Assembly (NCBI GenBank): GCA_964036665.1
Contig: OZ038526.1
Location: 15,500,001 to 15,564,000 of the forward strand
Direction: 5' to 3'
Source of the DNA: Gordius sp. MW1
Taxonomy: Eukaryota > Nematomorpha > Gordioida > Gordea > Gordiidae
DNA: 64,000 nucleotides
The notes beneath the pieces are model-generated. The model was not told the DNA's origin. It saw only the letters and a program-made list of their open reading frames with translations, and did no database searches. Shown piece after piece: positions 36,822-64,000 of this stretch. Made by a program: the position numbers and the translations under genes. How positions within the stretch are numbered: position 1 is the first letter of the stretch; the number at the start of each line of letters is the position of its first letter.

Positions 36822-38169
36822 GCTGCGAGAACTATCATTTTGACAAAAGACAACGTTTTATTGTTGCGATTAGTTTGTTGTATCGCAACGTGAGTGCTTA
36901 ATTTTTGAAAACTGCTCTATGCGATCATTCAAAGTAATAGTTTTTAGATTCTGATAAATTTTTACTTGGGATCATAGAAACCACGTCTGAAAACGACAAC
37001 TTTCATCGGATGAATACGGTTCAAAGAAAAATATGTGAAAAATTGTGAGGTAAAAATATTTATTTTTTTCGATTCTATGTGAAAGAGCATGAAAAAATAT
37101 ATAAAAGTAAGTCAATTTGAGAATCCTATTATCCTCGATTGACTTCCGAAAAGAGGTTTTAAGCTGCGAGAACTATCATTTTGACAAAAGACAACGTTTA
37201 TTGTTGCGATTAGTTTGTTGTATCGCAACGTGATTGCTTAATTTTTGAAAACTGCTCTATGCGATCATGATTTCAAAGTAATAGTTTTTAGATTCTGATA
37301 AATTTTTACTTGGGATCATAGAAACCACGTCTGAAAACGACAACTTTCATCGGATGAATACGGTTCAAAGAAAAATATGTCAAAAATTTTGAGGTAAAAA
37401 TATTTATTTTTTTCGATTCTATGTGAAAGAGCATGAAAAAATATATAAAAGTAAGCCAATTTGAGAATCCTATTATATTCGATTGACTTCCGAAAAGAGG
37501 TTTTAAGCTGCGAGAACTATCATTTTGACAAAAGACAACGTTTATTGTTGCGATTAGTTTGTTGTATCGCAACGTGATTGCTTAATTTTTGAAAACTGCT
37601 CTATGCGATCATGATTTCAAAGTAATAGTTTTTAGATTCTGATAAATTTTTACTTGGGATCATAGAAACCACGTCTGAAAACGACAACTTTCATCGGATG
37701 AATACGGTTCAAAGAAAAATATGTCAAAAATTTTGAGGTAAAAATATTTATTTTTTTCGATTCTATGTGAAAGAGCATGAAAAAATATATAAAAGTAAGC
37801 CAATTTGAGAATCCTCTTATATTCGATTGACTTCCGAAAAGAGGTTTTGAGCTGCGAGAACTATCATTTAGACAAAAGACAACGTTTTATTGTTGCGATT
37901 AGTTTGTTGTATCGCAACGTGAGTGCTTAATTTTTGAAAACTGCTCTATGCGATCATGATTTCAAAGTAATAGTTTTTAGATTCTGATAAATTTTTACTT
38001 GGGATCATAGAAACCACGTCTGAAAACGACAACTTTCATCGGATGAATACGGTTCAAAGAAAAATATGTAAAAAATTTTGAGGTAAAAATATTTATTTTT
38101 TTCGATTCTATGTGAAAGAGCATGAAAAAATATATAAAAGTAAGCTAATTTGAGAATCCTATTATCCTC
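36822..38169 (+). repeat. A monomers resembling the left-edge array
   Basis: Monomers start at 36822, 37163, 37507 and 37851 (341, 344, 344, 345). They carry variants otherwise typical of 1-18 kb: gatcattcaaag with aattgtgagg and gtaagtc (36822), gtgattgctt with atgtcaaaaat (37163, 37507, as in 3090), the cctcttatattcg end (37507) and the tttagac start (37851). Monomers 37163 and 37507 share a one-base loss (aacgtttattg), so one is a recent copy of the other. Confidence 0.88.
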
Positions 38170-38470
38170 GAATGACTTCGGAAAAGAAGTTTTAAGCTAC
38201 GAGAACTATCATTTTGACAAAAGACAAGGTTTTATTGTTGCGATTAGTTTGTTGTATCGCAACGTGAGTGCTTAATTTTTGAAAACTGCTCTATGCGATC
38301 ATGATTTCAAAGTAATAGTTTTCTTATTCTGATAAATTTTAACTTTTTATCATGGAAATCGTGTCTGAAAACGACAACTTTCATCGGATGAATACGGTTG
38401 AAAGAAAAAAATCTGAAAAATTTTGAGGTAAAAATATTTATTTTTTGTTATTCTATGTGAAAGAGCTTAA
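38170..38470 (+). repeat. B-type tract inside the + strand A array
   Basis: About 300 bp read as subfamily B although they lie in the + array: cgaatgacttcggaaaagaag (38169-), agacaaggtttt, tttaactttttatcatgg, aaatcgtgtctg, ggttgaaagaaaaaaat, tttttgttattc and gagctta. Flanks are A (gccaatttgag after 38480, cctcg before 38170). B otherwise occurs only on the other side of the orientation switch, in opposite orientation, about 2.0 kb away. The tract covers most of monomer 38196 and the tail of 37851. Confidence 0.9.
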
Positions 38471-38540
38471 AAAAATATATAAAAGTAAGCCAATTTGAGA
38501 ATCCTATTATCCTCGATTGACTTCCGAAAAGAGGTTTTAA

Positions 38541-40478
38541 GCTGCGAGAACTATCATTTTGACAAAGACAACGTTTTATTGTTGCGATTAGTTTGTTGTA
38601 TCGCAACGTGAGTGCTTAATTTTTGAAAACTGCTCTATGCGATCATGATTTCAAAGTAATAGTTTTTAAATTCTGATAAATTTTTACTTGGGATCATAGA
38701 AACCACGTCTGAAAACGACAACTTTCATCGGATGAATACGGTTCAAAGAAAAATATGTGAAAAATTTTGAGGTAAAATTTTTTATTTTTTTCGATTCTAT
38801 GTGACGAGCATGAAAAAATATATAAAAGTAAGCCAATTTGAGAATCCTATTATCCTCGATTGACTTCCGAAAAGAGGTTTTAAGCTGCGAAAACTATCAT
38901 TTTTACAAAAGACAACGTTTTATTGTTGCGATTAGTTTGTTGTATCGCAACGTGAGTGCTTAATTTTTGAAATTGCTCTATGCGATCATGATTTCAAAGT
39001 AATAGTTTTTAGATTCTGATAAATTTTTACTTGGGATCATAGAAACCACGTCTGAAAACGACAACTTTCATCGGATGAATACGGTTCAAAGAAAAATATG
39101 TGAAAAATTTTGAGGTAAAATTTTTTATTTTTTTCGATTCTATGTGAAAGAGCATGAAAAAATATATAAAAGTAAGCCAATTTGAGAATCCTATTATCCT
39201 CGATTGACTTCCGAAAAGAGGTTTTAAGCTGCGAGAACTATCATTTTAACAAAAGACAACGTTTTATTATTGCGATTAGTTTGTTGTATCGCAACGTGAG
39301 TGCTTAATTTTTGAAAACTGCTCTATGCGATCATGATTTCAAAGTAATAGTTTTTAGATTCTGATAAATTTTTACTTGGGATCATAGAAACCACGTCTGA
39401 AAACGACAACTTTCATCGGATGAATACGGTTCAAAGAAAAATATGTGAAAAATTTTGAGGTAAAAATATTTATTTTTTTCGATTCTATGTGAAAGAGCAT
39501 GAAAAAATATATAAAAGTGAGCCAATTTGAGAATCCTATTATCCTCGATTGACTTCCGAAAAGAGGTTTTAAGCTGCGAGAACTATCATTTTGACAAAGA
39601 CAACGTTTTATTGTTGCGATTAGTTTGTTGTATCGCAACGTGAGTGCTTAATTTTTGAAAACTGCTCTATGCGATCATTCAAAGTAATAGTTTTTAGATT
39701 CTGATAAATTTTTACTTGGGATCATAGAAACCACGTCTGAAAACGACAACTTTCATCGGATGAATACGGTTCAAAGAAAAATATGTGAAAAATTTTGAGG
39801 TAAAATTATTTATTTTTTTCAATTCTATGTGAAAGAGCATGAAAAAATATATAAAAGTAAGCCAATTTGAGAATCCTATTATCCTCGATTGACTTCCGAA
39901 AAGAGATTTTAAGCTGCGAGAACTATCATTTTGACAAAAGACAACGTTTTATTGTTGCGATTAGTTTGTTGTATCGCAACGTGAGAGCTTAATTTTTGAA
40001 AACTGCTCTATGCGATCATGATTTCAAAGTAATAGTTTTTAAATTGATAAATTTTTACTTGGGATCATAGAAACCACGTCTGAAAACGACAACTTTCATC
40101 GGATGAATACGGTTCAAAGTAAAATATGTGAAAAATTTTGAGGCAAAAATATTTATTTTTTTCGATTCTATGTGAAAGAGCATGAAAAAATATATAAAAG
40201 TAAGCCAATTTGAGAATCCTATTATCCTCGATTGACTTCCGAAAAGAGGTTTTAAGTTGCTAAAACTATCATTTTGACAAAAGACAACGTTTTATTGTTG
40301 CGATTAGTTTGTTGTATCGCAACGTGATTGCTTAATTTTTGAAAACTGCTCTATGCGATCATTCAAAGTAATAGTTTTTAGATTCTGATAAATTTTTACT
40401 TGGGATCATAGAAACCACGTCTGAAAACGACAACTTTCATCGGATGAATACGGTTCAAAAAAAAATATGTGAAAAAAA
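38541..40478 (+). repeat. Last A monomers before the orientation switch
   Basis: Monomers start at 38541, 38884, 39228, 39573, 39913 and 40256 (343, 344, 345, 340, 343 bp, last one cut at ~223 bp). Variants match the 33-36 kb zone (gcgaaaactatc with ttttacaaaag in 38884). Monomer 39228 has ttaacaaaag and attattgcg; 39913 lacks two bases in taaattgat; 40256 starts with gttgctaaaac and carries gtgattgctt. The final monomer retains the hairpin and ends in the A-run after atatgtg. Confidence 0.9.
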
Positions 40479-40481
40479 ATT
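40471..40481. other. Orientation switch (+ A array to - B array)
   Basis: The + strand monomer reads normally through atatgtg, followed by an eight-A run (40472-40479) and then ttaagcactcacgttgcg, which is the reverse complement of monomer offsets ~70-83. The A array would give five A before tttt, and the B array has five or six A before ttaagc, so the join lies inside the A-run with 2-4 bases of ambiguity. Arrays converge (3' ends of monomers face each other). The two flanks form a giant inverted repeat with a ~140-bp spacer (about 40339-40478), because the - side keeps only offsets 1 to ~83 of its first monomer. No extra sequence lies at the join. Confidence 0.95.
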
Positions 40482-40559
40482 AAGCACTCACGTTGCGATA
40501 CAACAAACTAATCGCAACAATAAAACCTTATCTTTTGTCAAAATGATAGTTCTCGCAGC

Positions 40560-43500
40560 TTTAAAACTTCTTTTCGGAAGTCAATCGAGGATAATAGGAT
40601 TCTCAAATGGCTTACTTTTATATATTTTATTAAGCTATTTCACATAGAATAACAAAAAATAAATATTTTTACCTCAAAATTTTTCCCATTTTCTTCTTTC
40701 AACCGTATTCATCCGATGAAAGTTGTCGTTTTCAGACACGATTTCCATGATAAAAAGTTAAAATTTATCAGAATCAGAAAACTATTACTTTGAAATCATG
40801 ATCGCACAGAGCAGTTTTCAAAAATTAATTACTCACGTTGCGATACAACAAACTAATCGCAACAATAAAACCTTGTCTTTTGTCAAAATGATAGTTCTCG
40901 CAGCTTTAAAACTTATTTTCGGAAGTCAATCAAGGATAATAGGATTCTCAAATGGCTTACTTTTATATATTTTTTTAAGCTCATTCACATAGAATAACAA
41001 AAAATAAATATTTTTACCTCAAAATTTTTCACATTTTTTTCTTTCAACCGTATTCATCCGATGAAAGTTGTCGTTTTCAGACACGATTTCCATGATAAAA
41101 AGTTAAAATTTATCACAATAGGAAAACTATTACTTTGAAATCATGATCGCACAGAGTGGTTTTAAAAAATTAAGCACTCACGTTGCGATACAACAAACTA
41201 ATCGCAACAATAAAACCTTGTCTTTTTGTCAAAATTATAGTTCTCGCAGCTTAAAACTTCTTTTCGTAAATCAATCGAGGATAATTCTCAAATTGGCTTA
41301 CTTTTATATATTTTTTCATGCTCTTTCACATAGAATAATAAAAAATAAATATTTTTACCTCAAAGTTTCATATTTTTTCCTTTCAACCGTATTCATCCGA
41401 TAAAAGTTGTCGTTTTCATTCACGATTTCCATGATAAAAAGGTTAAATTTATCAGAATCAGAAAACTATTACTTTGAAATCATGACCGCATAGAGCAGTT
41501 TTCAAAAATTAAGCACTCACGTTGCGATACAACAAACTAATCGCAACCATAAAACCTTATCTTTTGTCAAAATGATAGTTCTCACAGCTTTAAAACTTCT
41601 TTTAGGAAGTCAATCGAGGATAATAGGATTCTCATTGGCTTACTTTTATATATTTTTTCAAGCTCTTTCACATAGAATAACAAAAAATAAATATTTTTAC
41701 CTCAAAATTTTTCACACTTTTTTCTTTCAACCGTATTCATCCGATGAAAGTTGTCGTTTTCAGACACGATTTCCATGATAAAAAGTTAAAATTTATCAGA
41801 ATCAGAAAACTATTACTTTGAAATCATGATCGCATAGAGCAGTTTTCAAAAATTAAGCACTCACGTTGCGATACAACAAACTAATCGCAACAATAAAACC
41901 TTGTCTTTTGTCAAAATGATAGTTCTCGTAGCTTAAAACTTCTTTTCCGAAGTCATTCGAGGATAATAGGATTCTCATTGGCTTACTTTTATATATTTTT
42001 TCAAGCTCTTTCACATAGAATAACAAAAAATAAATATTTTTACCTCAAAATTTTTCACATTTTTTTCTTTCAACCGTATTCATCCGATAAAAGTTGTCGT
42101 TTTCATTCACGATTTCCATGATAAAAAGGTTAAATTTATCAGAATCAGAAAACTATTACTTTGAAATCATGACCGCATAGAGCAGTTTTCAAAAATTAAG
42201 CACTCACGTTGCGATACAACAAACTAATCGCAACAATAAAACCTTATCTTTTGTCAAAATGATAGTTCTCGAAGCTTTAAAACGTCTTTTCGCAAGTCAA
42301 TCGAGGATAATAGGATTCTCAAATGGCTTACTTTTATATATTTTTTTAAGCTCTTTCACATAGAATAACAAAAAATAAATATTTTTACCTCAAAATTTTT
42401 CACATTTTTTTCTTTCAACCGTATTCATCCGATGAAAGTTGTCGTTTTCAGACACGATTTCCATGATAAAAAGTTAAAATTTATCAGAATCAGAAAACTA
42501 TTACTTTGAAATCATGACCGCATAGAGCAGTTTTCAAAAATTAAGCACTCACGTTGCGATACAACAAACTAATCGCAACAATAAAACCTTATCTTTTGTC
42601 AAAATGATAGTTCTCGCAGCTTTAAAACTTCTTTTTGGAAGTCAATCGAGGATAAGGGGATTCTCAAATGGCTTACTTTTATATATTTTTTTAAGCTCTT
42701 TCACATAGAATAACAAAAAATAAATATTTTTACCTCAAAATTTTTCAGATTTTTTTCTTTCAACCGTATTCATCCGATGAAAGTTGTCGATTTCAGACAC
42801 GATTTCCATGATAAAAAGTTAAAATTTATCAGAATCAGAAAACTATTACTTTGAAATCATGATCGCATAGAGCAGTTTTCAAAAATTAAGCACTCACGTT
42901 GCGATACAACAAACTAATCGCAACAATAAAACCTTGTCTTTTGTCAAAATGATAGTTCTCGTAGCTTAAAACTTCTTTTCCGAAGTTATTCGAGGATAAT
43001 AGGATTCTCATTGGCTTACTTTTATATATTTTTTCAAGCTCTTTCACATAGAATAACAAAAAATAAATATTTTTACCTCAAAATTTTTCACACTTTTTTC
43101 TTTCAACCGTATTCATCCGATGAAAGTTGTCGTTTTCAGACACGATTTCCATGATAAAAAGTTAAAATTTATCAGAATCAGAAAACTATTACTTTGAAAT
43201 CATGATCGCATAGAGCAGTTTTCAAAAATTAAGCACTCACGTTGCGATACAACAAACTAATCGCAACAATAAAACCTTGTCTTTTGTCAAAATGATAGTT
43301 CTCGTAGCTTAAAACTTCTTTTCCGAAGTCATTCGAGGATAATAGGATTCTCATTGGCTTACTTTTATATATTTTTTCAAGCTCTTTCACATAGAATAAC
43401 AAAAAATAAATATTTTTACCTCAAAATTTTTCACATTTTTTTCTTTCAACCGTATTCATCCGATAAAAGTTGTCGTTTTCATTCACGATTTCCATGATAA

Positions 43501-44338
43501 AAAGGTTAAATTTATCAGAATCAGAAAACTATTACTTTGAAATCATGACCGCATAGAGCAGTTTTCAAAAATTAAGCACTCACGTTGCGATACAACAAAC
43601 TAATCGCAACAATAAAACCTTATCTTTTGTCAAAATGATAGTTCTCGCAGCTTTAAAACTTCTTTTCGCAAGTCAATCGAGGATAATAGGATTCTCAAAT
43701 GGCTTACTTTTATATATTTTTTTAAGCTCTTTCACATAGAATAACAAAAAATAAATATTTTTACCTCAAAATTTTTCACATTTTTTTCTTTCAACCGTAT
43801 TCATCCGATGAAAGTTGTCGTTTTCAGACACGATTTCCATGATAAAAAGTTAAATTTATCAGAATCAGAAAACTATTACTTTGAAATCATGATCGCATAG
43901 AGCAGTTTTCAAAAATTAAGCACTCACGTTGCGATACAACAAACTAATCGCAACAATAAAACCTTGTCTTTTGTCAAAATGATAGTTCTCGCAGCTTAAA
44001 ACTTCTTTTCCGAAGTCATTCGAGGATAATAGGATTCTCATTGGCTTACTTTTATATATTTTTTCAAGCTCTTTCACATAGAATAACAAAAAATAAATAC
44101 TTTTACCTCAAAATTTTTCACATTTTTTTCTTTCAACCGTATTCATCCGATGAAAGTTGTCGTTTTTAGACACGATTTCCATGATAAAAAGTTAAAATTT
44201 ATCAGAATCAGAAAATTATTACTTTGAAATCATGATCGCACAGAGACGTTTTAAAAAATTAAGCACTCACGTTGCGATACAACAAACTAATCGCAAAAAT
44301 AAAACCTTGTCTTTTGTCAAAATGATAGTTCTCACAGC
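40560..44338 (-). repeat. B monomers nearest the switch
   Basis: Offset-1 positions (read leftward) are 40904, 41250, 41588, 41932, 42275, 42620, 42965, 43308, 43651, 43995 and 44338 (343-346, one of 338). Types alternate irregularly between the caaatggc and cattggc forms. A short-range repeat is seen: the monomer ending at 41932, with gtagctt and gataaaagttg next to it, resembles that at 43308, and the 42276-42620 and 43652-43995 surroundings share cttttcgcaag or related forms. No long clean duplication was found. The partial monomer 40479-40559 precedes this block. Confidence 0.85.
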
Positions 44339-46970
44339 TTTAAAACTTCTTTTCGGAAGTCAATCGAGGATAATAGGATTCTTAAAAGGGTTACCTTTCT
44401 ATATTTTTTTAAGCTCTTTCACATAGAATAACAAAAAATAAAAATTTTTACCTCAAAATTTTTCACGTTTTTTTCTTTCAACCGTATTCATCCGATGAAA
44501 GTTGTCGACACGATTTCCATGATAAAAAGTTAAAATTTATCAGAATCAGAAAACTATTACTTTAAAATCATGATCGCATAGAGCAGTTTTAAATAATTAA
44601 GCAATCATGTTGCGATACAACAAACTAATCGCAACAATAAAACCTTGTCTTTTGTCAAAATGATAGTTCTCGCAGCTTAAAACTTCTTTTCGTAAATCAA
44701 TCGAGGATAATAGGATTCTCAAATTGGCTTACTTTTATATATTTTTTCAAGCTCTTTCACATAGAATAATAAAAAATAAATATTTTTACCTCAAAATGTT
44801 TCATATTTTTTTCTTTCAACCGTATTCATCCGATAAAAGTTGTCGTTTTCATACACGATTTCCATGATAAAAAGGTTAAATTTATCAGAATCAGAAAACT
44901 ATTACTTTGAAATCATGACCGCATAGAGCAGTTTTCAAAAATTAAGCACTCACGTTGCGATACAACAACCTAATCGCAACATTAAAACCTTGTCTTTTGT
45001 CAAAATGATATTTCTCGCAGCTTAAAACTTCTTTTCCGAAGTCATTCGAGGATAATAGGATTCTCATTGGCTTACTTTTATATATTGTTTCAAGCTCTTT
45101 CACATAGAATAACAAAAAATAAATATTTTTACCTCAAAATTTTTCACATTTTTTTCTTTCAACCGTATTCATCCGATGAAAGTTGTCGTTTTCAGACACG
45201 ATTTCCATGATAAAAAAATTTATCAGAATCCGAAAACTATTAATTTGAAATCATGATCGCATAGAGCAGTTTTAAAAAATTAAGAACTCACGTTGCGATA
45301 CGACAAACTAATCGCAACAATAAAACCTTGTCTTTTGTCAAAATGATAGTTCTCGCAGCATAAAACGTCTTTTCCGAAGTCAATCGAGGATAATAGGATT
45401 CTCAAATTGGCTTTCATTTATATATTTTTTCAAGCTCTTTCACATAGAATAAAAAAAAATAAACATTTTTACCTCAAAATTATTCACATTTTTTTCTTTC
45501 AACCGTATTCATCCGATGAAAGTTGTCGTTTTCAGACACGATTTCCATGATAAAAAGTTAAGATTTATCAGAATCAGAAAACTATTACTTTGAAATCATG
45601 ATCGCATAGAGCAGTTTTCAAAAATTAAGCACTCACGTTGCGATACAATAAACTAATCGCAATAATAAAACCTTGTCTTTTGTCAAAATGATAGTTTTTG
45701 CAGCTTAAAACTTCTTTTCCGAAGTCATTCGAGGATAATAGGATTCTCATTGGCTTACTTTTATATATTTTTTCAAGCTCTTTCACATAGAATAACAAAA
45801 AATAAATATTTTTACTCAAAATTTTTCACATTTTTTTCTTTCAACCGTATTCATCCGATGAAAGTTGTCGTTTTCAGACACGATTTCCATGATAAAAAGT
45901 TAAAATTTATGAGAATCGTAAAACTATTACTTTGAAATCATGACCGCATAGAGCAGTTTTCAAAAATTAAGCACTCACGTTGCGATACAACAAACTAATC
46001 GCAACAATAAAACCTTGTCTTTTGTCAAAATGATAGTTCTCGCAGCTTAAAATTTCTTTTCGTAAATCAATCCAGGATAATAGGATTCTCAAATAGGCTT
46101 ACTTTTATATATTTTTTGAAGCTCTTTCACATAGAATAACAAAAAATAAAATATTTTACCTCAAAATTTTCACATTTTTTCTTTCTACCGTATTCATCCG
46201 ATGAAAGTTGTCGTTTTCATACACGATTTCCATGATAAAATGGTTAAATTTATCAGAATCAGAAAACTATTACTTTGAAATCATGACCGCATAGAGCAGT
46301 TTTAAAAAATTAATCACTCACGTTGCGATACAACAAACTAATCGCAACAATAAAACCTTATCTTTTGTCAAAATGATAGTTCTCGCAGCTTAAAATTTCT
46401 TTTCGTAAATCAATCGAGGATAATAGGATTCTCAAATGGCTTACTTTTATATATTTTATTAAGCTATTTCACATAGAATAACAAAAAATAAATATTTTTA
46501 CCTCAAAATTTTTCAAATTTTCTTCTTTCAACCGTATTCATCCGATGAAAGTTGTCGTTTTCAGACACGATTTCCATGATAAAAAGTTAAAATTTATCAG
46601 ACTCAGAAAACTCTTACTTTGAAATCATGATCGCATAGAGCAGTTTTAAAAAATTAAGCACTCACGTTGCGATACATCAAACTAATCGCAACAATAAAAC
46701 CTTATCTTTTGTCATAATGATAGGTCTCGCAGCTTTAAAACTTCTTTTCGGAAGTCAATCGAGGATAATAGGATTCTCAAATGGCTTACTTTTATATATT
46801 TTTTCAAGCTCTTTCACATAGAATAACAAAAAATAAATATTTTTACCTCAAAATTTTTCACATTTTTTTCTTTCAACCGTATTCATCCGATGAAAGTTGT
46901 CGTTTTCAGACACGATTTCCATGATAAAAAGATAAAATTTATCAGAATCAGAAAAGTATTACTTTGAAAT
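44339..46970 (-). repeat. B HOR, copy 1 of the 6,857-bp spacing (~7.5 monomers)
   Basis: Offset-1 positions are 44676, 45021, 45359, 45704, 46046, 46389 and 46733 (338, 345, 338, 345, 342, 343, 344). Marks in + order are aaaagggttacc with gtcgacacg; cttttcgtaaatc with gtttcatat; cttttccgaag with agaatccg; cataaaacgtc; tttttgcagc with tttactcaaaa and gagaatcgtaaaac; aaataggc with tttctaccg; the cttttcgtaaatc form with tttattaagc; ataggtctcgcagc; and gataaaaagataaaat. The series recurs at +6,857 to +6,860. Copy 1 has private losses in gataaaaaaattt. Confidence 0.9.
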
Positions 46971-47078
46971 CATGATCGCATAGAGCAGTTTTCAAAAATT
47001 AAGTACTCACGTTGCGATACAACAAACTAATCGCAACAATAAAACCTTGTCTTTTGTCAAAATGATAGTTCTCGCAGC

Positions 47079-49485
47079 TTTAAAACTTATTTTCGGAAGT
47101 CAATCAAGGATAATAGGATTCTCAAATGGCTTAATTTCATATATTTTTTTAAGCTCATTCACATAGAATAACAAAAAATAAATATTTTTACCTCAAAATT
47201 TTTCACATTTTTTTCTTTCAACCGTATTCATCCGATGAAAGTTGTCGTTTTCAGACACGATTTCCATGATAAAAAGTTAAAATTTATCAGAATCAGAAAA
47301 CTATTACTTTGAAATCATGATTGCATAGAGCAGTTTTCAAAAATTAAGCACTCACGTTGCGATACAACAAACTAATCGCAACAATAAAACCTTGTCTTTT
47401 GTCAAAATGATAGTTCTCGCAGCTTAAAACTTCTTTTCCGAAGTCATTCGAGGATAATAGGATTCTCATTGGCTTACTTTTATATATTTTTTCAAGCTCT
47501 TTCACATAGAATAACAAAAAATAAATATTTTTACCTCAAAATTTTTCACATTTTTTTCTTTCAACCGTATTCATCCGATGAAAGTTGTCGTTTTCAGACA
47601 CGATTTCCATGATAAAAAGTTAAAATTTATCAGAATCAGAAAACTATTACTTTGAAATCATGATCGCACAGAGCAGTTTTAAAAATTAAGCACTCACGTT
47701 GCGATACAACAAACTAATCGCAAAAATAAAACCTTATCTTTTGTCATAATGATAGGTCTCGCAGCTTTAAAACTTCTTTTCGGAAGTCAATCGAGGATAA
47801 TAGGATTCTCAAATGGCTTACTTTTATATATTTTTTCAAGCTCTTTCACATAGAATAACAAAAAATAAATGTTTTTACCTCAAAATTTTTCACATATTTT
47901 TCTTTGAACCGTATTCATCCGATGAAAGTTGTCGTATTCAGACGTGGTTTCTATGATCCCAAGTAAAAATTTATCAGAATCTAAAAACTATTACTTTGAA
48001 ATCATGATCGCATAGAGCAGTTTTCAAAAATTAAGCAATCACGTTGCGATACAACAAACTAATCGCAACAATAAAACGTTGTCTTTTGTCAAAATGATAG
48101 TTCTCGCAGAGTAAAACTTCTTTTCGTAAATCAATCGAGGATAATAGGATTCTCAAATTGGCTTACTTTTATATATTTTTTCAAGCTCTTTCACATAGAA
48201 TAATAAAAAATAAATATTTTTACCTCAAAATGTTTCATATTTTTTTCTTTCAACCGTATTCATCCGATAAAAGTTGTCGTTTTCATACACGATTTCCATG
48301 ATAAATAGGTTAAATTTATCAGAATCAGAAAACTATTACTTTGAAATCATGACCGCATAGAGCAGTTTTCAAAAATTAAGCACTCACGTTGCGATACAAC
48401 AACCTAATCGCAACATTAAAACCTTGTCTTTTGTCAAAATGATAGTTCTCGCAGCTTAAAACTTCTTTTCCGAAGTCATTCGAGGATAATAGGATTCTCA
48501 TTGGCTTACTTTTATATATTTTTTCAAGCTCTTTCACATAGAATAACAAAAAATAAATATTTTTACCTCAAAATTTTTCACATTTTTTTCTTTCAACCGT
48601 ATTCATCCGATGAAAGTTGTCGTTTTCAGACACGATTTCCATGATAAAAAGTTAAAATTTATCAGAATCCGAAAACTATTAATTTGAAATCATGATCGCA
48701 TAGAGCAGTTTTAAAAAATTAAGCACTCACGTTGCGATACGACAAACTAATCGCAACAATAAAACCTTGTCTTTTGTCAAAATGATAGTTCTCGCAGCTT
48801 TAAAACTTATTTTCGGAAGTCAATCAAGGATAATAGGATTCTCAAATGGCTTACTTTTATTTATTTTTTTAAGCTCATTCACATAGAATAACAAAAAATA
48901 AATATTTTTACCTCAAAATTTTTCACATTTTTTTCTTTCAACCGTATTCATCCGATGAAAGTTGTCGTTTTCAGACACGATTTCCATGATAAAAAGTTAA
49001 AATTTATCAGAATCAAAAAACTATTACTTTGAAATCATGATCGCATAGAGCAGTTTTCAAAAATTAAGCACTCACGTTGCGATACAACAAACTAATCGCA
49101 ACAATAAAACCTTGTCTTTTGTCAAAATGATAGTTCTCGCAGCTTAAAATTCTTTTCCGAAGTCATTCGAGGATAATAGGATTCTCATTGGCTTACTTTT
49201 ATATATTTTTTCAAGCTCTTTCACATAGAATAACAAAAAATAAATATTTTTACCTCAAAATTTTTCACATTTTTTTCTTTCAACCGTATTCATCCGATGA
49301 AAGTTGTCGTTTTCAGACACGATTTCCATGATAAAAAGTTAAAATTTATCAGAATCAGAAAACTATTACTTTGAAATCATGATCGCACAGAGCAGTTTTA
49401 AAAAATTAAGCACTCACTTTGCGATACAACAAACTAATCGCAAAAATAAAACCTTGTCTTTTGTCAAAATGATAGTTCTCGCAGC
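47079..49485 (-). repeat. B monomers between the HOR copies
   Basis: Offset-1 positions are 47423, 47764, 48110, 48455, 48798, 49143 and 49485 (345, 341, 346, 345, 343, 345, 342). The stretch contains the A-type tract. On either side are the cttttcggaag with ctcattcac form (47079-47423, 48799-49143), the gtttcatat form with gataaatagg (48111-48455) and the cattggc form. The order around 48111-48798 parallels 44677-45359, so pieces of the 44.3-kb unit are reused here. Confidence 0.85.
47871..48090 (-). repeat. A-type tract inside the B array
   Basis: About 0.2 kb carries A words as seen in the - orientation: aaatgttttt, cacatatttttctttgaacc, gacgtggtttctatgatccc, aagtaaaaattt, agaatctaaaaac and aaaacgttgtc. 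It is flanked by B words (gaataacaaaaaataaat before, cttcttttcgtaaatc after). The aatgttttt mark resembles the A' array (56.7, 58.5 and 61.2 kb), while aagcaatcacg matches the gtgattgctt variant of the + array rather than the aagccacg of A', so the donor is unclear. The 48110 monomer has gcagag where others have gcagc. Confidence 0.9.
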
Positions 49486-51195
49486 TTTAAAACTTCTTTT
49501 CGGAAGTCAATCGAGGATAATAGGATTCTTAAAAGGGTTACCTTTCTATATTTTTTTAAGCTCTTTCACATAGAATAACAAAAAATAAATATTTTTACCT
49601 CAAAATTTTTCACATTTTTTTCTTTCAACCGTATTCATCCGATGAAAGTTGTCGACACGATTTCCATGATAAAAAGTTAAAATTTATCAGAATCAGAAAA
49701 CTATTACTTTGAAATCATGATCGCATAGAGCAGTTTTAAATAATTAAGCAATCATGTTGCGATACAACAAACTAATCGCAACAATAAAACCTTGTCTTTT
49801 GTCAAAATGATAGTTCTCGCAGCTTAAAACTTCTTTTCGTAAATCAATCGAGGATAATAGGATTCTCAAATTGGCTTACTTTTATATATTTTTTCAAGCT
49901 CTTTCACATAGAATAATAAAAAATAAATATTTTTACCTCAAAATGTTTCATATTTTTTTCTTTCAACCGTATTCATCCGATAAAAGTTGTCGTTTTCATA
50001 CACGATTTCCATGATAAAAAGGTTAAATTTATCAGAATCAGAAAACTATTACTTTGAAATCATGACCGCATAGAGCAGTTTTCAAAAATTAAGCACTCAC
50101 GTTGCGATACAACAACCTAATCGCAACATTAAAACCTTGTCTTTTGTCAAAATGATAGTTCTCGCAGCTTAAAACTTCTTCGAAGTCATTCGAGGATAAT
50201 AGGATTCTCATTGGCTTACTTTTATATATTTTTTCAAGCTCTTTCACATAGAATAACAAAAAATAAATATTTTTACCTCAAAATTTTTCACATTTTTGTC
50301 TTTCAACCGTATTCATCCGATGAAAGTTGTCGTTTTCAGAAACGATTTCCATGATAAAAAGTTAAAATTTATCAGAATCCGAAAACTATTAATTTGAAAT
50401 CATGATCGCATAGAGCAGTTTTAAAAAATTAAGCACTCACGTTGCGATACGACAAACTAATCGCAACAATAAAACCTTGTCTTTTGTCAAAATGATAGTT
50501 CTCGCAGCATAAAACGTCTTTTCGGAAGTCAATCGAGGGTAATAGGATTCTCAAATTGGCTTACTTTTATATATTTTTTCAAGCTCTTTCACATAGAATA
50601 AAAAAAAATAAACATTTTTACCTCAAAATTTTTCACATTTTTTTCTTTCAACCGTATTCATCCGATGAAAGTTGTCGTTTTCAGACACGATTTCCATGAT
50701 AAAAAGTTAAGATTTATCAGAATCAGAAAACTATTACTTTGAAATCATGATCGCATAGAGCAGTTTTCAAAATTAAGCACTCACGTTGCGATACAATAAA
50801 CTAATCGCAATAATAAAACCTTGTCTTTTGTCAAAATGATAGTTTTTGCAGCTTAAAACTTCTTTTCCGAAGTCATTCGAGGATAATAGGATTCTCATTG
50901 GCTTACTTTTATATATTTTTTCAAGCTCTTTCACATAGAATAACAAAAAATAAATATTTTTACCTCAAAATTTTTCACATTTTTTTCTTTCAACCGTATT
51001 CATCCGATGAAAGTTGTCGTTTTCAGACACGATTTCCATGATAAAAAGTTAAAATTTATCAGAATCAGAAAACTATTACTTTGAAATCATGATCGCACAG
51101 AGCAGTTTTAAAAAATTAAGCACTCACGTTGCGATACAACAAACTAATCGCAAAAATAAAACCTTGTCTTTTGTCAAAATGATAGTTCTCGCAGC
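49486..51195 (-). repeat. B 5-monomer HOR unit (1,710 bp)
   Basis: Offset-1 positions are 49823, 50168, 50508, 50852 and 51195 (338, 345, 340, 344, 343). Order of types is aaaagggttacc with gtcgacacg; cttttcgtaaatc with gtttcatat; a cttcttcgaag form that has lost four bases plus agaatccg; cataaaacgtc with ataaacattt; tttttgcagc followed by a plain cattggc monomer. The first four types repeat from 51196. The fifth differs there (gagaatcgtaaaac at 52771, absent here). Confidence 0.9.
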
Positions 51196-53826
51196 TTTAA
51201 AACTTCTTTTCGGAGTCAATCGAGGATAATAGGATTCTTAAAAGGGTTACCTTTCTATATTTTTTTAAGCTCTTTCACATAGAATAACAAAAAATAAATA
51301 TTTTTACCTCAAAATTTTTCACATTTTTTTCTTTCAACCGTATTCATCCGATGAAAGTTGTCGACACGATTTCCATAATAAAAAGTTAAAATTTATCAGA
51401 ATCAGAAAACTATTACTTTGAAATCATGATCGCATAGAGCAGTTTTAAATAATTAAGCAATCATGTTGCGATACAACAAACTAATCGCAACAATAAAACC
51501 TTGTCTTTTGTCAAAATGATAGTTCTCGCAGCTTAAAACTTCTTTTCGTAAATCAATCGAGGATAATAGGATTCTCAAATTGGCTTACTTTTATATATTT
51601 TTTCAAGCTCTTTCACATAGAATAATAAAAAATAAATATTTTTACCTCAAAATGTTTCATATTTTTTTCTTTCAACCGTATTCATCCGATAAAAGTTGTC
51701 GTTTTCATACACGATTTCCATGATAAAAAGGTTAAATTTATCAGAATCAGAAAACTATTACTTTGAAATCATGACCGCATAGAGCAGTTTTCAAAAATTA
51801 AGCACTCACGTTGCGATACAACAACCTAATCGCAACATTAAAACCTTGTCTTTTGTCAAAATGATAGTTCTCGCAGCTTAAAACTTCTTTTCCGAAGTCA
51901 TTCGAGGATAATAGGATTCTCATTGGCTTACTTTTATATATTTTTTCAAGCTCTTTCACATAGAATAACAAAAAATAAATATTTTTACCTCAAAATTTTT
52001 CACATTTTTTTCTTTCAACCGTATTCATCCGATAAAAGTTGTCGTTTTCAGACACGATTTCCATGATAAAAAGTTAAAATTTATCAGAATCCGAAAACTA
52101 TTAATTTAAAATCATGATCGCATATAGCAGTTTTAAAAAATTAAGCACTCACGTTGCGATACGACAAACTAATCGCAACAATAAAACCTTGTCTTTTTCA
52201 AAATGATAGTTCTCGCAGCATAAAACGTCTTTTCGGAAGTCAATCGAGGATAATAGGATTCTCAAATTGGCTTACTTTTATATATTTTTTCAAGCTCTTT
52301 CACATAGAATAAAAAAAAATAAACATTTTTACCTCAAAATTTTTCACATTTTTTTCTTTCAACCGTATTCATCCGATGAAAGTTGTCGTTTTCAGACACG
52401 ATTTCCATGATAAAAAGTTAAGATTTATCAGAATCAGAAAACTATTACTTTGAAATCATGATCGCATAGAGCAGTTTTCAAAAATTAAGCACTCACGTTG
52501 CGATACAATAAACTAATCGCAATAATAAAACCTTGTCTTTTGTCAAAATGATAGTTTTTGCAGCTTAAAACTTCTTTTCCGAAGTCATTCGAGGATAATA
52601 GGATTCTCATTGGCTTACTTTTATATATTTTTTCAAGCTCTTTCACATAGAATAACAAAAAATAAATATTTTTACTCAAAATTTTTCACATTTTTTTCTT
52701 TCAACCGTATTCATCCGATGAAAGTTGTCGTTTTCAGACACGATTTCCATGATAAAAAGTTAAAATTTATGAGAATCGTAAAACTATTACTTTGAAATCA
52801 TGACCGCATAGAGCAGTTTTTAAAAATTAAGCACTCACGTTGCGATACAACAAACTAATCGCAACAATAAAACCTTGTCTTTTGTCAAAATGATAGTTCT
52901 CGCAGCTTAAAATTTCTTTTCGTAAATCAATCGAGGATAATAGGATTCTCAAATAGGCTTACTTTTATATATTTTTTGAAGCTCTTTCACATAGAATAAC
53001 AAAAAATAAAATATTTTACCTCAAAATTTTCACATTTTTTCTTTCTACCGTATTCATCCGATGAAAGTTGTCGTTTTCATACACGATTTCCATGATAAAA
53101 TGGTTAAATTTATCAGAATCAGAAAACTATTACTTTGAAATCATGACCGCATACAGCAGTTTTAAAAAATTAATCACTCACGTTGCGATACAACAAACTA
53201 ATCGCAACAATAAAACCTTATCTTTTGTCAAAATGATAGTTCTCGCAGCTTAAAATTTCTTTTCGTAAATCAATCGAGGATAATAGGATTCTCAAATGGC
53301 TTACTTTTATATATTTTATTAAGCTATTTCACATAGAATAACAAAAAATAAATATTTTTACCTCAAAATTTTTCACATTTTCTTCTTTCAACCGTATTCA
53401 TCCGATGAAAGTTGTCGTTTTCAGACACCCATGATAAAAAGTTAAAATTTATCAGACTCAGAAAACTCTTACTTTGAAATCATGATCGCATAGAGCAGTT
53501 TTAAAAAATTAAGCACTCACGTTGCGATACATCAAACTAATCGCAACAATAAAAGCTTATCTTCTGTCATAATGATAGGTCTTGCAGCTTTAAAACTTCT
53601 TTTCGGACGTCAATCGAGGATAATAGGATTCTCAAATGGCTTACTTTTATATATTTTTTTAAGCTCTTTCACATAGAATAACAAAAAATAAATATTTTTA
53701 CCTCAAAATTTTTCACATTTTTTTCTTTCAACCGTATTCATCCGATGAAAGTTGTCGTTTTCAGACACGATTTCCATGATAAAAAGATAAAATTTATCAG
53801 AATCAGAAAACTATTACTTTGAAATC
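51196..53826 (-). repeat. B HOR, copy 2 of the 6,857-bp spacing
   Basis: Offset-1 positions are 51532, 51877, 52219, 52564, 52906, 53249 and 53588 (337, 345, 342, 345, 342, 343, 339). It repeats the mark series of 44339-46970. The 52485-52795 stretch looks identical to 45625-45935. Private changes are cttttcggagtc in the first monomer, gtctttttc near 52194, and a short loss giving gacacccatgat near 53427. It overlaps the start of the 1,710-bp HOR and of the 2,056-bp one. Confidence 0.9.
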
Positions 53827-55006
53827 ATGACCGCATAGAGCAGTTTTCAAAAATTAAGCACTCACGTTGCGATACAACAACCTAATCGCAACATTAAAAC
53901 CTTGTCTTTTGTCAAAATGATAGTTCTCGCAGCTTAAAACTTCTTTTCCGAAGTCATTCGAGGATAATAGGATTCTCATTGGCTTACTTTTATATATTTT
54001 TTCAAGCTCTTTCACATAGAATAACAAAAAATAAATATTTTTACCTCAAAATTTTTCACATTTTTTTCTTTCAACCGTATTCATCCGATGAAAGTTGTCG
54101 TTTTCAGACACGATTTCCAGATAAAAAGTTAAAATTTATCAGAATCCGAAAACTATTAATTTGAAATCATGATCGCATAGAGCAGTTTTAAAAAATTAAG
54201 CACTCACGTTGCGATACGACAAACTAATCGCAACAATAAAACCTTGTCTTTTGTCAAAATGATAGTTCTCGCAGCATAAAACGTCTTTTCGGAAGTCAAT
54301 CGAGGATAATAGGATTCTCAAATTGGCTTACTTTTATATATTTTTTCAAGCTCTTTCACATAGAATAAAAAAAAATAAACATTTTTACCTCAAAATTTTT
54401 CACATTTTTTTCTTTCAACCGTATTCATCCGATGAAAGTTGTCGTTTTCAGACACGATTTCCATGATAAAAAGTTAAGATTTATCAGAATCAGAAAACTA
54501 TTACTTTGAAATCATGATCGCATAGAGCAGTTTTCAAAAATTAAGCACTCACGTTGCGATACAATAAACTAATCGCAATAATAAAACCTTGTCTTTTGTC
54601 AAAATGATAGTTTTTGCAGCTTAAAACTTCTTTTCCGAAGTCATTCGAGGATAATAGGATTCTCATTGGCTTACTTTTATATATTTTTTCAAGCTCTTTC
54701 ACATAGAATAACAAAAAATAAATATTTTTACTCAAAATTTTTCACATTTTTTTCTTTCAACCGTATTCATCCGATGAAAGTTGTCGTATTCAGACACGAT
54801 TTCCATGATAAAAAGTTAAAATTTATGAGAATCGTAAAACTATTACTTTGAAATCATGACCGCATAGAGCAGTTTTCAAAAATTAAGCACTCACGTTGCG
54901 ATACAACAAACTAATCGCAACAATAAAACCTTGTCTTTTGTCAAAATGATAGTTCTCGCAGCTTAAAATTTCTTTTCGTAAATCAATCGAGGATAATAGG
55001 ATTCTC
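53826..55006 (-). repeat. B duplication at +2,056 bp of 51770-52950
   Basis: Offset-1 positions are 53933, 54275, 54620 and 54962 (345, 342, 345, 342). From gaccgcatag and the cctaatcgcaacatt mark onward it repeats 51770-52950, including agaatccg, cataaaacgtc, tttactcaaaa and gagaatcgtaaaac. It ends where 52950 continues with aaataggc and this copy continues with aaatggc. It then joins a copy of 46390-47423 (54963 onward, spacing ~8,573, reduced to 8,544 after a 29-bp loss). Confidence 0.88.
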
Positions 55007-55306
55007 AAATGGCTTACTTTTATATATTTTATTAAGCTATTTCACATAGAATAACAAAAAATAACTATTTTTACCTCAAAATTTTTCACATTTTCTTCTT
55101 TCAACCGTATTCATCCGATGAAAGTTGTCGTTTTCAGACACGATTTCCATGATAAAAAGTTAAAATTTATCAGACTCAGAAAACTCTTACTTTGAAATCA
55201 TGATCGCATAGAGCAGTTTTAAAAAATTAAGCACTCACGTTGCGATACATCAAATTAATCGCAACAATAAAACCTTATCTTTTGTCATAATGATAGGTCT
55301 CGCAGC

Positions 55307-55622
55307 TTTAAAACTTCTTTTCGGAAGTCAATCGAGGATAATAGGATTCTCAAATGGCTTACTTTTATAAACAAAAAATAAATATTTTTACCTCAAAATT
55401 TTTCACATTTTTTTCTTTCAACCGTATTCATCCGATGAAAGTTGTCGTTTTCAGACACGATTTCCATGATAAAAAGATAAAATTTATCAGAATCAGAAAA
55501 TATTACTTTGAAATCATGATCGCATAGAGCAGTTTTCAAAATTTAAGTACTCACGTTGCGATACAACAAACTAATTGCAACAATAAAACCTTGTCTTTTG
55601 TCAAAATGATAGTTTTCGCAGC
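55307..55622 (-). repeat. Shortest monomer (316 bp) with a 29-bp internal deletion
   Basis: At 55368-55372 the sequence reads acttttata followed directly by acaaaaaat. The partner monomer (46734-47078) has 29 more bases between these words. Both edges carry ata, so the loss looks like a microhomology deletion. It removes part of the TATA-like motif and the ctttcacatag word that all other monomers keep. The rest of the monomer shares gataaaaagataaaat and aagtactcacg with its partner. Confidence 0.93.
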
Positions 55623-56540
55623 TTTAAAACTTATTTTCGGAAGTCAATCAAGGATAATAGGATTCTCAAATGGCTTACTTTTATATATTTTTTTAAGCTC
55701 ATTCACATAGAATAACAAAAAATAAATATTTTTACCTCAAAATTTTTCACATTTTTTTCTTTCAACCGTATTCATCCGATGAAAGTTGTCGTTTTCAGAC
55801 ACGATTTCCATGATAAAAAGTTAAAATTTATCAGAATCAGAAAACTATTACTTTGAAATCATGATCGCATAGAGCAGTTTTCAAAAATTAAGCACTCACG
55901 TTGCGATACAACAAACTAATCGCAACAATAAAACCATGTCTTTTGTCAAAATGATAGTTCTCGCAGCTTAAAACTTCTTTTCCGAAGTCATTCGAGGATA
56001 ATAGGATTCTCATTGGCTTACTTTTATATATTTTTTCAAGCTCTTTCACATAGAATAACAAAAAATAAATATTTTTACCTCAAAATTTTTCACATTTTTT
56101 TCTTTCAACCGTATTCATCCGATGAAAGTTGTCGTTTTCAGACACGATTTCCATGATAAAAAGTTAAAATTTATCAGAATCAGAAAACTATTACTTTGAA
56201 ATCATGATCGCACAGAGCAGTTTTAAAAAATTAAGCACTCACGTTGCGATACAACAAACTAATCGCAAAAATAAAACCTTGTCTTTTGTCAAAATGATAG
56301 TTCTCGCAGCTTTAAAACTTCTTTTCGGAAGTCAATCGAGGATAATAGGATTCTTAAAAGGGTTACCTTTCTATATTTTTTTAAGCTCTTTCACATAGAA
56401 TAACAAAAAACAAATATTTTTACCTCAAAATTTTTCACATTTTTTTCTTTCAACCGTATTCATCCGATGAAAGTTGTCGACACGATTTCCATGATAAAAA
56501 GTTAAAATTTATCAGAATCAGAAAACTATTACTTTGAAAT
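55623..56540 (-). repeat. Last B monomers
   Basis: Offset-1 positions are 55967 and 56310, with a hybrid monomer ending at 56644. The first two repeat 47079-47764 in part. The 56311-56522 stretch is the aaaagggttacc with gtcgacacg type, the fourth occurrence of that short form (others near 44507, 49651 and 51360). B marks stop after agaatcagaaaac at about 56527. Confidence 0.88.
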
Positions 56541-56557
56541 CATGATCGCATAGAGCA
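56523..56557. other. Subfamily boundary B to A' (same orientation)
   Basis: The last B word (agaatcagaaaac) ends at about 56527 and the first A' word (gagcatttttc, then aagccacgttg) begins at about 56555. The switch lies inside one monomer without change of phase or orientation; the resulting monomer is 334 bp. This looks like a recombination joint between two arrays of the same family. Confidence 0.88.
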
Positions 56558-56986
56558 TTTTTCAAAAATTAAGCCACGTTGCGATACAACAAACTAATCG
56601 CAAAATAAAACGTTGTCTTTTGTCAAAATGATAGTTCTCCCAGCTTAAAACCTATTTTCGGAAGTCAATCCAGGATAATAGGATTCTCAAATTGGCTTAC
56701 TTTTATATATTTTTTTATGCTCTTTCACAGAGAATCGAAAAAAATAAATGTTTTTACCTCAAAATTTTTCACATATTTTTCTTTGAACAGTATTCATCCG
56801 ATGAAAGTTGTCGTTTTCAGACGTGGTTTCTATGATCCCAAGTACAAATTTATCAGAATTTAAAACCTATTACTTTGAAATCATGATCGGATAGAGCAGT
56901 TTTCAAAAATTAAGCCACGTTGCGATACAACAAACTAATCGCAACAATAAAACGTTGTCTTTTGTCAAAATGATAGTTCTCGCAGC

Positions 56987-59036
56987 TTAAAACCTCTTTT
57001 CGGAAGTCAATCGACGATAATAGGATTCTCAAACTGGCTTACTTTTATATATTTTTTCATGCTCTTTCACATAGAATCGAAAAAAATAAAAAATTTTACC
57101 TCAAAATTTTTCACATATTTTTTTTTGAAAGTATTCATCCGATGAAAGTTGGCGTTTTCACACGTGGTTTCTATGATCCCAAGTAAATATTTATCAGAAT
57201 CTAAAAACTATTACTTTAAAATCATGATCGCATAGAGCATTTTTCAAAAATTAAGCCACGTTGCGATACAACAAACTAATCGCAACAATAAAACGTTGTC
57301 TTTTGTCAAAATGATAGTTCTCGCAGCTTAAAACCTCTTTTCGGAAGTCAATCGACGATAATAGGATTCTCAAACTGGCTTACTTTTATATATTTTTTTA
57401 TGCTCTTTCACAGAGAATCGCAAAAAATAAATATTTTAACCTCAAAATTTTTAACATATTTTTCCTTGAACCGTATTCATCCGATGAAAGTTGTCGTTTT
57501 CAGACGTGGTTTCTATGATCCCAAGTAAAAATTTATCAGAATCTAAAAACTATTACTTTGAAATCATAATCGCATAGAGCATTTTTCAAAAATTAAGCCA
57601 CGTTGCGATACAACAAACTAATCGCAACAATAAAACGTTGTCTTTTGTCAAAATGATAGTTCTCGCAGCTTAAAACCTCTTTTCGGAAGTCAATCGACGA
57701 TAATAGGATTCTCAAACTGGCTTACTTTTATATATTTTTTCATGCTCTTTCACATAGAATCGAAAAAAATAAAAAATTTACCTCAAAATTTTTCACATTT
57801 TTTTCTTTGAACCGTATTCATCCGATGAAAGTTGGCGTTTTCACACGTGGTTTCTATGATCCCAAGTAAATATTTATCAGAATCTAAAAACTATTACTTT
57901 GAAATCATGATCGCATAGAGCATTTTTCAAAAATTAAGCCACGTTGCGATACAACAAACTAATCGCAACAATAAAACGTTGTCTTTTGTCAAAATGATAG
58001 TTCTCGCAGCTTAAAACCTCTTTTCGGAAGTCAATCGACGATAATAGGATTCTCAAACTGGCTTACTTTTATATATTTTTTTATGCTCTTTCACAGAAAA
58101 TCGCAAAAAATAAATATTTTAACCTCAAAATTTTTAACATATTTTTCCTTGAACCGTATTCATCCGATGAAAGTTGTCGTTTTCAGACGTGGTTTCTATG
58201 ATCCCAAGTAAAAATTTATCAGAATCTAAAAACTATTACTTTGAAATCATAATCGCATAGAGCATTTTTCAAAAATTAAGCCACGTTGCGATACAACAAA
58301 CTAATCGCAACAATAAAACGTTGTCTTTTGTCAAAATGATAGTTCTCGCAGCTTAAAACCTCTTTTCGGAAGTCAATCGACGATAATAGGATTCTCAAAC
58401 TGGCTTACTTTTATATATTTTTTCATGCTCTTTCACATAGAATCGAAAAAAATAAATGTTTTTACCTCAAAATTTTTCACATTTTTTTCTTTGAACCGTA
58501 TTCATCCGATGAAAGTTGGCGTTTTCACACGTGGTTTCTATGATCCCAAGTAAATATTTATCAGAATCTAAAAACTATTACTTTGAAATCATGATCGCAT
58601 AGAGCATTTTTCAAAAATTAAGCCACGTTGCGATACAACAAACTAATCGCAACAATAAAACGTTGTCTTTTGTCAAAATGATAGTTCTCGCAGCTTAAAA
58701 CCTATTTTCGGAAGTCAATCGAGGATAATAGGATTCTCAAATTGGCTTACTTTTATATATTTTTTTATGCTCTTTAACAGAGAATCGAAAAAAATAAATA
58801 TTTTTACCTCAAAATATTTCACATATTTTTCTTTGAACCGTATTCATCCGATGAAAGTTGTCGTTTTCAGACGTGGTTTCTATGATCCCAAGTAAAAATT
58901 TATCAGAATCTAAAAACTATTACTTTGAAATCATAATCGCATAGAGCATTTTTCAAAAATTAAGCCACGTTGCGATACAACAAACTAATCGCAACAATAA
59001 AACGTTGTCTTTTGTCAAAATGATAGTTCTCGCAGC
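56987..59036 (-). repeat. A' 2-monomer HOR, ~683 bp x 3
   Basis: Units 56987-57669, 57670-58352 and 58353-59036. Monomer type 1 has catagaatcg with aaaaaattt and gttggcgttttcacacg; type 2 has cagagaatcg or cagaaaatcg with atatttt and aacctc, ttttccttgaacc and aatcataatcgc. The third unit is more changed: aatgttttt in its first monomer, and a second monomer with acctattttcgg, ctttaacag and aaatatttcac. Alternation is clear in the first two units. Confidence 0.88.
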
Positions 59037-60743
59037 TTAAAACCTCTTTTCGGAAGTCAATCGACGATAATAGGATTCTCAAACTGGCTTACTTTTATAT
59101 ATTTTTTCATGCTCTTTCACATAGAATCGAAAAAAATAAATAACCTCAAAATTTTTCACATATTTTTCTTTGAACCGTATTCTTCCGATGAAAGTTGGCG
59201 TTTTCACACGTGGTTTCGATCCCAAGTAAAAATTTATCAGAATCTAAAAACTATTACTTTGAAATCATGATCGCATAGAGCATTTTTCAAAAATTAAGCC
59301 ACGTTGCGATACAACAAACTAATCGCAAAATAAAACGTTGTCTTTTGTCAAAATGATAGTTCTCCCAGCTTAAAACCTATTTTCGGAAGTCAATCCAGGA
59401 TAATAGGATTCTCAAATTGGCTTACTTTTATATATTTTTTTATGCTCTTTCACATAGAATCGAAAAAAATAAATATTTTTACCTCAAATTTTTCACATAT
59501 TTTTCTTTGAACCGTATTCATCCGATGAAAGTTGTCGTTTTCAGACGTGGTTTCTATGATCCCAAGTAAAAATTTATCAGAATTTAAAAACTATTACTTT
59601 GAAATCATGATCGCATAGAGCATTTTTCAAAAATTAAGCCACGTTGCGATACAATAAACTAATCGCAACAATAAAACGTTGTCTTTTGTCAAAATGATAG
59701 TTCTCGCAGCTTAAAACCTCTTTTCGGAAGTCAATCGACGATAATAGGATTCTCAAACTGGCTTACTTTTATATATTTTTTCATGCTCTTTCACATAGAA
59801 TTGAAAAAAATAAATATTTTTACCTCAAAATTTTTCACATATTTTTCTTTGAACCGTATTCATCCGATGAAAGTTGTCGTTTTAAGACGTGGTTTCTATG
59901 ATCCCAAGTAAAAATTTATTAGAATCTAAAAACTATTACTTTGAAATCAATATCGCATAGAGCAGTTTTCAAAAATTAAGCACTCACGTTGCGATACAAC
60001 AAACTAATCGCAACAATAAAACGTTGTCTTTTGTCAAAATGATAGTTCTCGCAGCTTAACCTCTTTTCGGAAGTCAATCGAGGATAATAGGATTCTCAAA
60101 TTGGCTTACTTTTATATATTTTTTCATGCTCTTTCACATAGAATCGAAAAAAATAAATATTTTTACCTCAAAATTTTTCACATATTTTTCTTTGAACCGT
60201 ATTCATCTGATAAAAGTTGTCGTTTTCAGACGTGGTTTCTATGATCCCAAGTAAAAATTTATCAGAATTTAAAAACTATTACTTTGAAATCATGATCGCA
60301 TAGAGCAGTTTTCAAAAATTAAGCACTCACGTTGCGATACAACAAACTAATCGCAACAATAAAACGTTGTCTTTTGTCAAAATGATAGTTCTCGCAGCTT
60401 AAAACCTATTTTCGGAAGTCAATCCAGGATAATATTATTCTCAAATTGGCTTACTTTTATATATTTTTTTATGCTCTTTCACAGAGAATCGAAAAAAATA
60501 AATATTTTTACCTCAAAATATTTCACATATTTTTCTTTGAACCGTATTCATCCGATGAAAGTTGTCGTTTTCAGACGTGGTTTCTATGATCCCAAGTAAA
60601 AATTTATCAGAATCTAAAAACTATTACTTTGAAATCATGATCGCATAGAGCAGTTTTCAAAAATTAAGCACTCACGTTGCGATACAACAAACTAATCTCA
60701 ACAATAAAACGTTGTCTTTTATCAAAATGATAGTTCTCGCAGC
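59037..60743 (-). repeat. A' 5-monomer HOR, copy 1 (1,707 bp)
   Basis: Monomers of 333, 341, 345, 343 and 345 bp. Marks in + order are aaataaataacctc with ggtttcgatccc (two small losses); ctcccagc with tcaatccagg and gcaaaataaaacg; catagaattg with taagacgtgg, attagaatc and aatcaatatcgc; gcagcttaacctc; and aatccagg with aatattattc and cagagaatcg. Type 1 keeps the gttggcg mark of the dimer array to its left. Confidence 0.9.
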
Positions 60744-63815: not shown

Positions 63816-64000
63816 TTAAAACCTCTTTTCGGAAGTCAATCGACGATAATAGGATTCTCAAACTGGCTTACTTTTATATATTTTTTCATGCTCTTTCACA
63901 TAGAATCGAAAAAAATAAATATTTTTACCTCAAAATTTTTCACATATTTTTCTTTGAACCGTATTCATCCGATGAAAGGTGTCGTTTTCAGACGTGGTTT
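63816..64000 (-). repeat. Partial A' monomer at the right window edge
   Basis: 185 bp of a monomer with aatcgacgat, caaactggc and catagaatcg (dimer type 1 features, but gtgtcgttttcag near 63979). The window ends in gacgtggttt, so the array continues. Confidence 0.93.

Follow-up and report, generated by a model that had tools for sequence, protein, structure and literature searches.

A head-to-head strand switch between two satellite subfamilies, probably a rearrangement breakpoint in a large satellite block

The stretch of DNA analysed here, referred to below as the window, comprises 64,000 nucleotides (C8:15500001-15564000, from a genome of 211.8 Mb in 12 contigs) and carries a satellite with a unit of 345 bp, represented by two subfamilies, A and B. 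The strand of this satellite flips between positions 40476 and 40477; the flip is truly present in the assembly and lies at a change of subfamily. Judged from its sequence and surroundings, the joint probably marks a genuine chromosomal breakpoint, at which a large satellite block was rearranged by a non-homologous, inversion-type event.

The strand switch at 40476/40477

The features on which the description rests are as follows, in window coordinates.

1 to 40476, + strand: 345-bp satellite, subfamily A, extending upstream as far as the sequence was read (C8:15450001)
38252 to 38595, + strand: lone B-type monomer in the + A array, in register and with chimeric edges, recognised by diagnostic columns
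40339 to 40476, + strand: spacer left unpaired between the inverted-repeat arms, 138 bp long in the register with the highest score; it belongs to the truncated monomer that ends the + array
40472 to 40479, no strand: run of eight A holding the joint, with 2-3 bp assignable to either side
40477 to 56589, - strand: 345-bp satellite, subfamily B, first monomer truncated, recognised by monomer cutting and diagnostic columns
47710 to 48054, - strand: chimeric monomer in the B block, in register, with 12 A-type and 5 B-type diagnostic positions
56590 to 64000, - strand: return to subfamily A with no strand change, the A block continuing to C8:15602982

An exact 12-mer anchor of the satellite occurs 118 times in forward orientation in the window, the last copy at 40316, and 51 times in reverse, the first copy at 40488, and no anchor lies on the wrong side of 40476/40477. 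Tandem Repeats Finder places the array break at 40475/40476, and the GC skew turns from +0.15 in 38001-40000 to -0.21 in 42001-44000, crossing zero in the bin between them (40001-42000). The monomers of one satellite reverse strand sharply here, a feature that the locus shares with satellite array inversions. To describe the arrays on both sides, 717 complete monomers were cut from 264 kb round the joint (C8:15450001-15714000, containing zero N) and clustered, A being told apart from B by 17 diagnostic alignment columns; of the 733 anchor intervals, 16 were excluded for lengths outside 300-400 bp, and copies with no recognisable anchor were also lost. A single B-like monomer is found among the 258 of the + side, and 237 of the 459 on the - side are B (inside the window, 1 of 117 and 46 of 69, respectively). 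The first-pass annotation had proposed that the + array is A and that the - array starts as B, and both these counts and the diagnostic columns bear this out.

The joint itself reads ATATGTGAAAAAAAATTAAGC. The + monomers continue as ATATGTGAAAAATTTTGAGG, and the - B monomers, written on the + strand, read AAAAAATTAAGC or CAAAAATTAAGC. Since the + monomers support the joint through 5 A and the - monomers from 5 or 6 A, 2-3 bp are ambiguous. The blunt join in an eight-A run described earlier is confirmed. Two partial monomers meet at this point, also as described, and the register is lost with the strand change. The overlap is unremarkable, because 200000 random joins of the two arrays gave at least 2 bp in 21% of draws and at least 3 bp in 8.6%; a homopolymer of at least 8 across the join arose in 0.9%. 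The overlap of two to three A was considered as a sign of a microhomology pathway and rejected, since 9-21% of random joins do as well. A search of the whole 211.8-Mb genome, with up to 2 mismatches allowed, placed the 25-mer that spans the joint at one position only.

The two arrays form an inverted repeat whose arms are 90.1% identical over 15.9 kb. Two arm registers score nearly equally, with either 138 or about 203 bp between the arms; the better of the two recovers the giant inverted repeat noted earlier, whose spacer had been put at about 140 bp. The locus therefore presents multi-kilobase opposed subarrays of one satellite, the arrangement of a macro-dyad symmetry. As single-stranded DNA, the 527 bases round the joint fold at -141.5 kcal/mol; 100 shuffled versions averaged -46.0, and not one reached the value of the real sequence. 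A fold of this strength would be expected of any inverted repeat of such length, and the cruciform formation or breakage suggested in the first-pass annotation is at most a possibility. A short dyad, TTGCGAT and ATCGCAA separated by 11 bases, lies at window positions 40298-40322 and is present at the equivalent place in other A and B monomers. Within the A array, a 13-bp duplication, ATCGCAACGTGAA, occurs five times in window positions 6584-12833, with spacings of 1385, 1389, 2066 and 1385 bp; these correspond to about four or six monomers, which suggests a higher-order repeat in part of this array.

Subfamily blocks and other strand changes

On the - side, B extends from the joint to C8:15556589 and is followed by A to 15602982, B to 15674879 and then A to the end of the 264-kb stretch, the B blocks holding four isolated A-type or chimeric monomers. 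The contrast between A and B at the joint is less special than first thought, since the - array is back to A after 16 kb and B, A, B and A blocks succeed one another on one strand. Subfamily changes that leave the strand unaltered largely keep the monomer length, to within about ten bases, whereas the strand change leaves two truncated monomers. By their sequence, the length-keeping changes appear to bear the mark of ordinary homologous exchange.

The - array is also interrupted by three insertions (C8:15589920-15592071, 15597201-15599352 and 15613374-15616386). The first two are 2152 bp each, lie 7281 bp apart and differ by 1 base, and this pair shows that local duplication is active in the array. 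Two of the insertions, when translated, held no open stretch longer than 118 residues. Each of the three ends on one side in a G+C-rich hairpin, a feature that we take to be reminiscent of Helitron-like elements.

To place the joint in its surroundings, contig C8 was surveyed with 53 short samples, 42 of which contained satellite. The satellite block extends over about 12.5-16.85 Mb, its left edge lying within 12.40-12.50 Mb and its right edge within 16.80-16.90 Mb. From 12.5 to 13.94 Mb, A was on the - strand at every sampled point. A third subfamily, C, occupies 13.96-14.43 Mb, with one non-satellite sample at 14.40 Mb, and is followed by B-like - samples at 14.46 and 14.48 Mb. Between 14.50 and 15.40 Mb, + A was seen at nine of nine sampled points, and beyond the window joint the satellite is on the - strand to 16.8 Mb, as A to 16.2 Mb and as B from 16.4 Mb. 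In the sample where the + A array begins, the bases C8:14500001-14500094 are non-satellite and rich in a CGGG motif. Retrotransposon-like and gene-like frames were also encountered in the samples, one of them matching Pfam DUF5641, and these frames suggest that the genome is that of an animal.

Subfamily C is about 70% identical to A and B, its repeat measuring 353 and 315 bp in two different samples, and throughout its stretch of about half a megabase (C8:13960001-14430250) the strand flips every few tens of kilobases. Successive satellite samples on C8 differ in strand 10 times; nine of these changes fall within 13.94-14.50 Mb (0.56 Mb) and the tenth is the window joint. Ten is a lower bound, because the sampling is blind to short inverted pieces. 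The C repeats at 14.10 Mb (+) have their best relatives, among the matches listed, at 14.33 Mb (-), with up to 97% identity; one candidate region was scored for this comparison, and the query's own place was absent from the list. Perhaps the C8 satellite block is the centromere region. Genome-wide, an exact 31-mer of the satellite is present 18059 times in forward and 27178 times in reverse orientation, and the same 31-mer was found 0 times in the viral contigs.

Further joints were sought genome-wide with a gapped head-to-head anchor pattern in two slices, 136-196 and 306-366 bases. The shorter slice returned two places, the window joint and C3:12921051. The latter has A on both sides and a phase different from that of the window joint, and by eye it has no clear overlap. 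The longer slice returned five places, all within about 20 kb (C6:13359799-13379881), four of them pointing one way and the fifth reversed; these five joints, also of a phase different from that of the window joint, share one sequence, and a genome-wide search allowing 2 mismatches gave no sixth copy. Tail-to-tail joints, sought in the single slice of 306-366 bases, numbered 0. Further joints are to be expected, since the two head-to-head slices represent about a quarter of the possible spacings and exact anchors lose more. In context, the window joint is less exceptional, because strand changes are common on C8 and joints exist on C3 and C6.

Origin of the joint

The reading we favour is that two ends, one from the + A array and one from the - B array, became joined, which would have set the arrays head to head. 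The join could be the work of an inverted template switch or of repair, either non-homologous or guided by microhomology; it would be an inversion-type event by end joining, with later array turnover, in the form of local duplication and subfamily replacement, having erased or altered the reciprocal joint. The opposite strands, the different subfamilies, the blunt and out-of-register joint, its unique sequence and the other strand changes nearby together make a non-homologous origin appear most likely. What counts against an inversion-type breakpoint is that no reciprocal joint was found and that the joint occurs only once, whereas the inversion sites of the flour beetle Tribolium madens are conserved in many copies. 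The reciprocal joint that a simple inversion predicts was absent from a search with an exact gapped pattern, which would miss subfamily variants; its sole match lies on C3, in DNA that resembles neither A nor B. A reciprocal joint could escape notice through array turnover or sequence variation. Of the earlier proposal that the switch marks an inversion breakpoint, the strand switch stands and the predicted partner was not found, and a simple two-break inversion with a surviving reciprocal joint is unsupported. The start of the + A array at C8:14500001 was considered as the partner and is not a clean one, its first 94 bases being non-satellite. When duplicates of the flanks of at least 1.5 kb at 97% identity or more were sought within the 264 kb, the left 20 kb had one other match and the right 20 kb none; with looser limits and the 6 kb round the joint, only the self match crosses the joint among the 25 of 500 matches listed.

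Satellite blocks are a classic site of misjoins, and the joint might instead be a chimeric assembly join inside the repeat, in which an assembler or scaffolder connected two distant satellite stretches or two haplotypes. We rejected a local fold-back or hairpin artefact, since arm identity is no higher than 90% and, across the joint, the closest complete monomers differ at 17 of 17 diagnostic columns. The first-pass annotation had taken the subfamily contrast to rule out an assembly fold-back, which holds for a local one; a distant misjoin would give the same contrast. A misjoin would also fit with a joint that occurs once and has no partner that we could find. Nevertheless, there is no N at or near the joint, and a single misjoin is insufficient to account for strand changes that recur on C8, C3 and C6, one of them at five places, although the window joint itself is not proven by that recurrence. 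On balance we consider a misjoin unlikely. More improbable still is that the opposed blocks form a functional macro-dyad selected for in centromere organisation, with the joint as one of its turning points. The layout of C8 has features of this kind: a left A block on the - strand and a right A block on the + strand flank the strand-changing C stretch, which lies in the interval holding nine of the ten detected changes, the related C repeats at 14.10 and 14.33 Mb are on opposite strands (again among the matches listed), and a similar pattern has been proposed to matter in Tribolium. The window joint, however, has a unique sequence and is separated from the alternating stretch by about 1.0 Mb, and neutral rearrangement followed by amplification explains the same facts. 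A selected role of opposed blocks is possible, and nothing in its support is specific to the window joint. A non-homologous breakpoint, by comparison, remains the probable origin.

Relation to known satellite inversions

The frame for telomerase reverse transcriptase (TERT) in this genome gave six distinct matches in the PDB at E values up to 10, all of them TERT. The chain 3du5 and related chains, which we take to be TERT of T. castaneum, were present in the PDB file searched and were not among these matches. This pattern argues against a Tribolium host, and the genome would appear to lie outside that genus. Searches for 7tm_6 (insect odorant receptors) and Chitin_bind_4 (arthropod cuticle proteins), which had no positive control, gave no match. 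Two TERT genes are present about 9 kb apart (C4:9709909-9710286 and 9719149-9719526), each with an open frame of 976 residues and no stop. As to the satellite itself, among the literature matches listed, and in the portions of text they contain, '345 bp' is printed only in a paper on Peromyscus, a genus of mice, where it appears three times.

Two related satellites of T. madens, TmSat1 and TmSat2, are described in the available excerpts of that study as forming macro-dyad symmetries, with conserved inversion sites whose copies number in the thousands and were verified with HiFi reads; the longest dyad listed there is 75 kb (PMC13081366). Its authors state, in the same excerpts, that such symmetries have been documented exclusively within Tribolium (PMC13081366), and in a literature search for the phrase 'macro-dyad' it was present, outside PMC13081366, only in the reference list of one further paper. 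If the present joint is confirmed by reads, it would imply that non-homologous joining gives rise to strand flips in large satellite blocks, that such flips are independent of most subfamily boundaries and that they may stay single copy or become amplified. A pattern that the T. madens authors, as far as the excerpts go, knew only from Tribolium (PMC13081366) would also gain a lineage beyond that genus, and the relevance of opposed satellite blocks to centromeres could thereby be tested more widely. We advance a broader picture only tentatively and regard it as rather doubtful: outside Tribolium, an animal centromere may consist of opposed megabase blocks of one satellite family round about half a megabase of an older, diverged subfamily whose orientation reverses at intervals of a few tens of kilobases. 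In this picture, the window joint would be a recent, single-copy starter event and the five-copy C6 joint one being amplified, so that early and later steps would be seen in one genome.

As in the described parts of the T. madens system, we find here an abundant satellite in large blocks, with orientation changes, inverted repeats of many kilobases and related types intermingled; joints occur on several contigs (C3, C6 and C8), and one joint type is repeated (C6). In contrast to the thousands of copies reported in those parts, the window joint is single copy and the C6 joint is present at only five places. The window joint was accordingly rejected as a conserved inversion site of the Tribolium type, its 25-mer being at one place only. 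Also unlike T. madens, as far as it is described there, the A and B blocks on C8 measure about 1.0-1.4 Mb by sampling and the unit is 345 bp. In primate centromeres, the excerpted text reports megabase-scale inverted stretches inside alpha-satellite arrays, validated by alignment of ultra-long reads and in some cases polymorphic (PMC11062924). The strand reversal within an array is common to these inversions, so far as that text describes them, and to the present locus, which is known from the sequence of one assembly. Overall, the window joint is best read, by analogy, as resembling both the macro-dyad symmetry of T. madens and the array inversions of primates.
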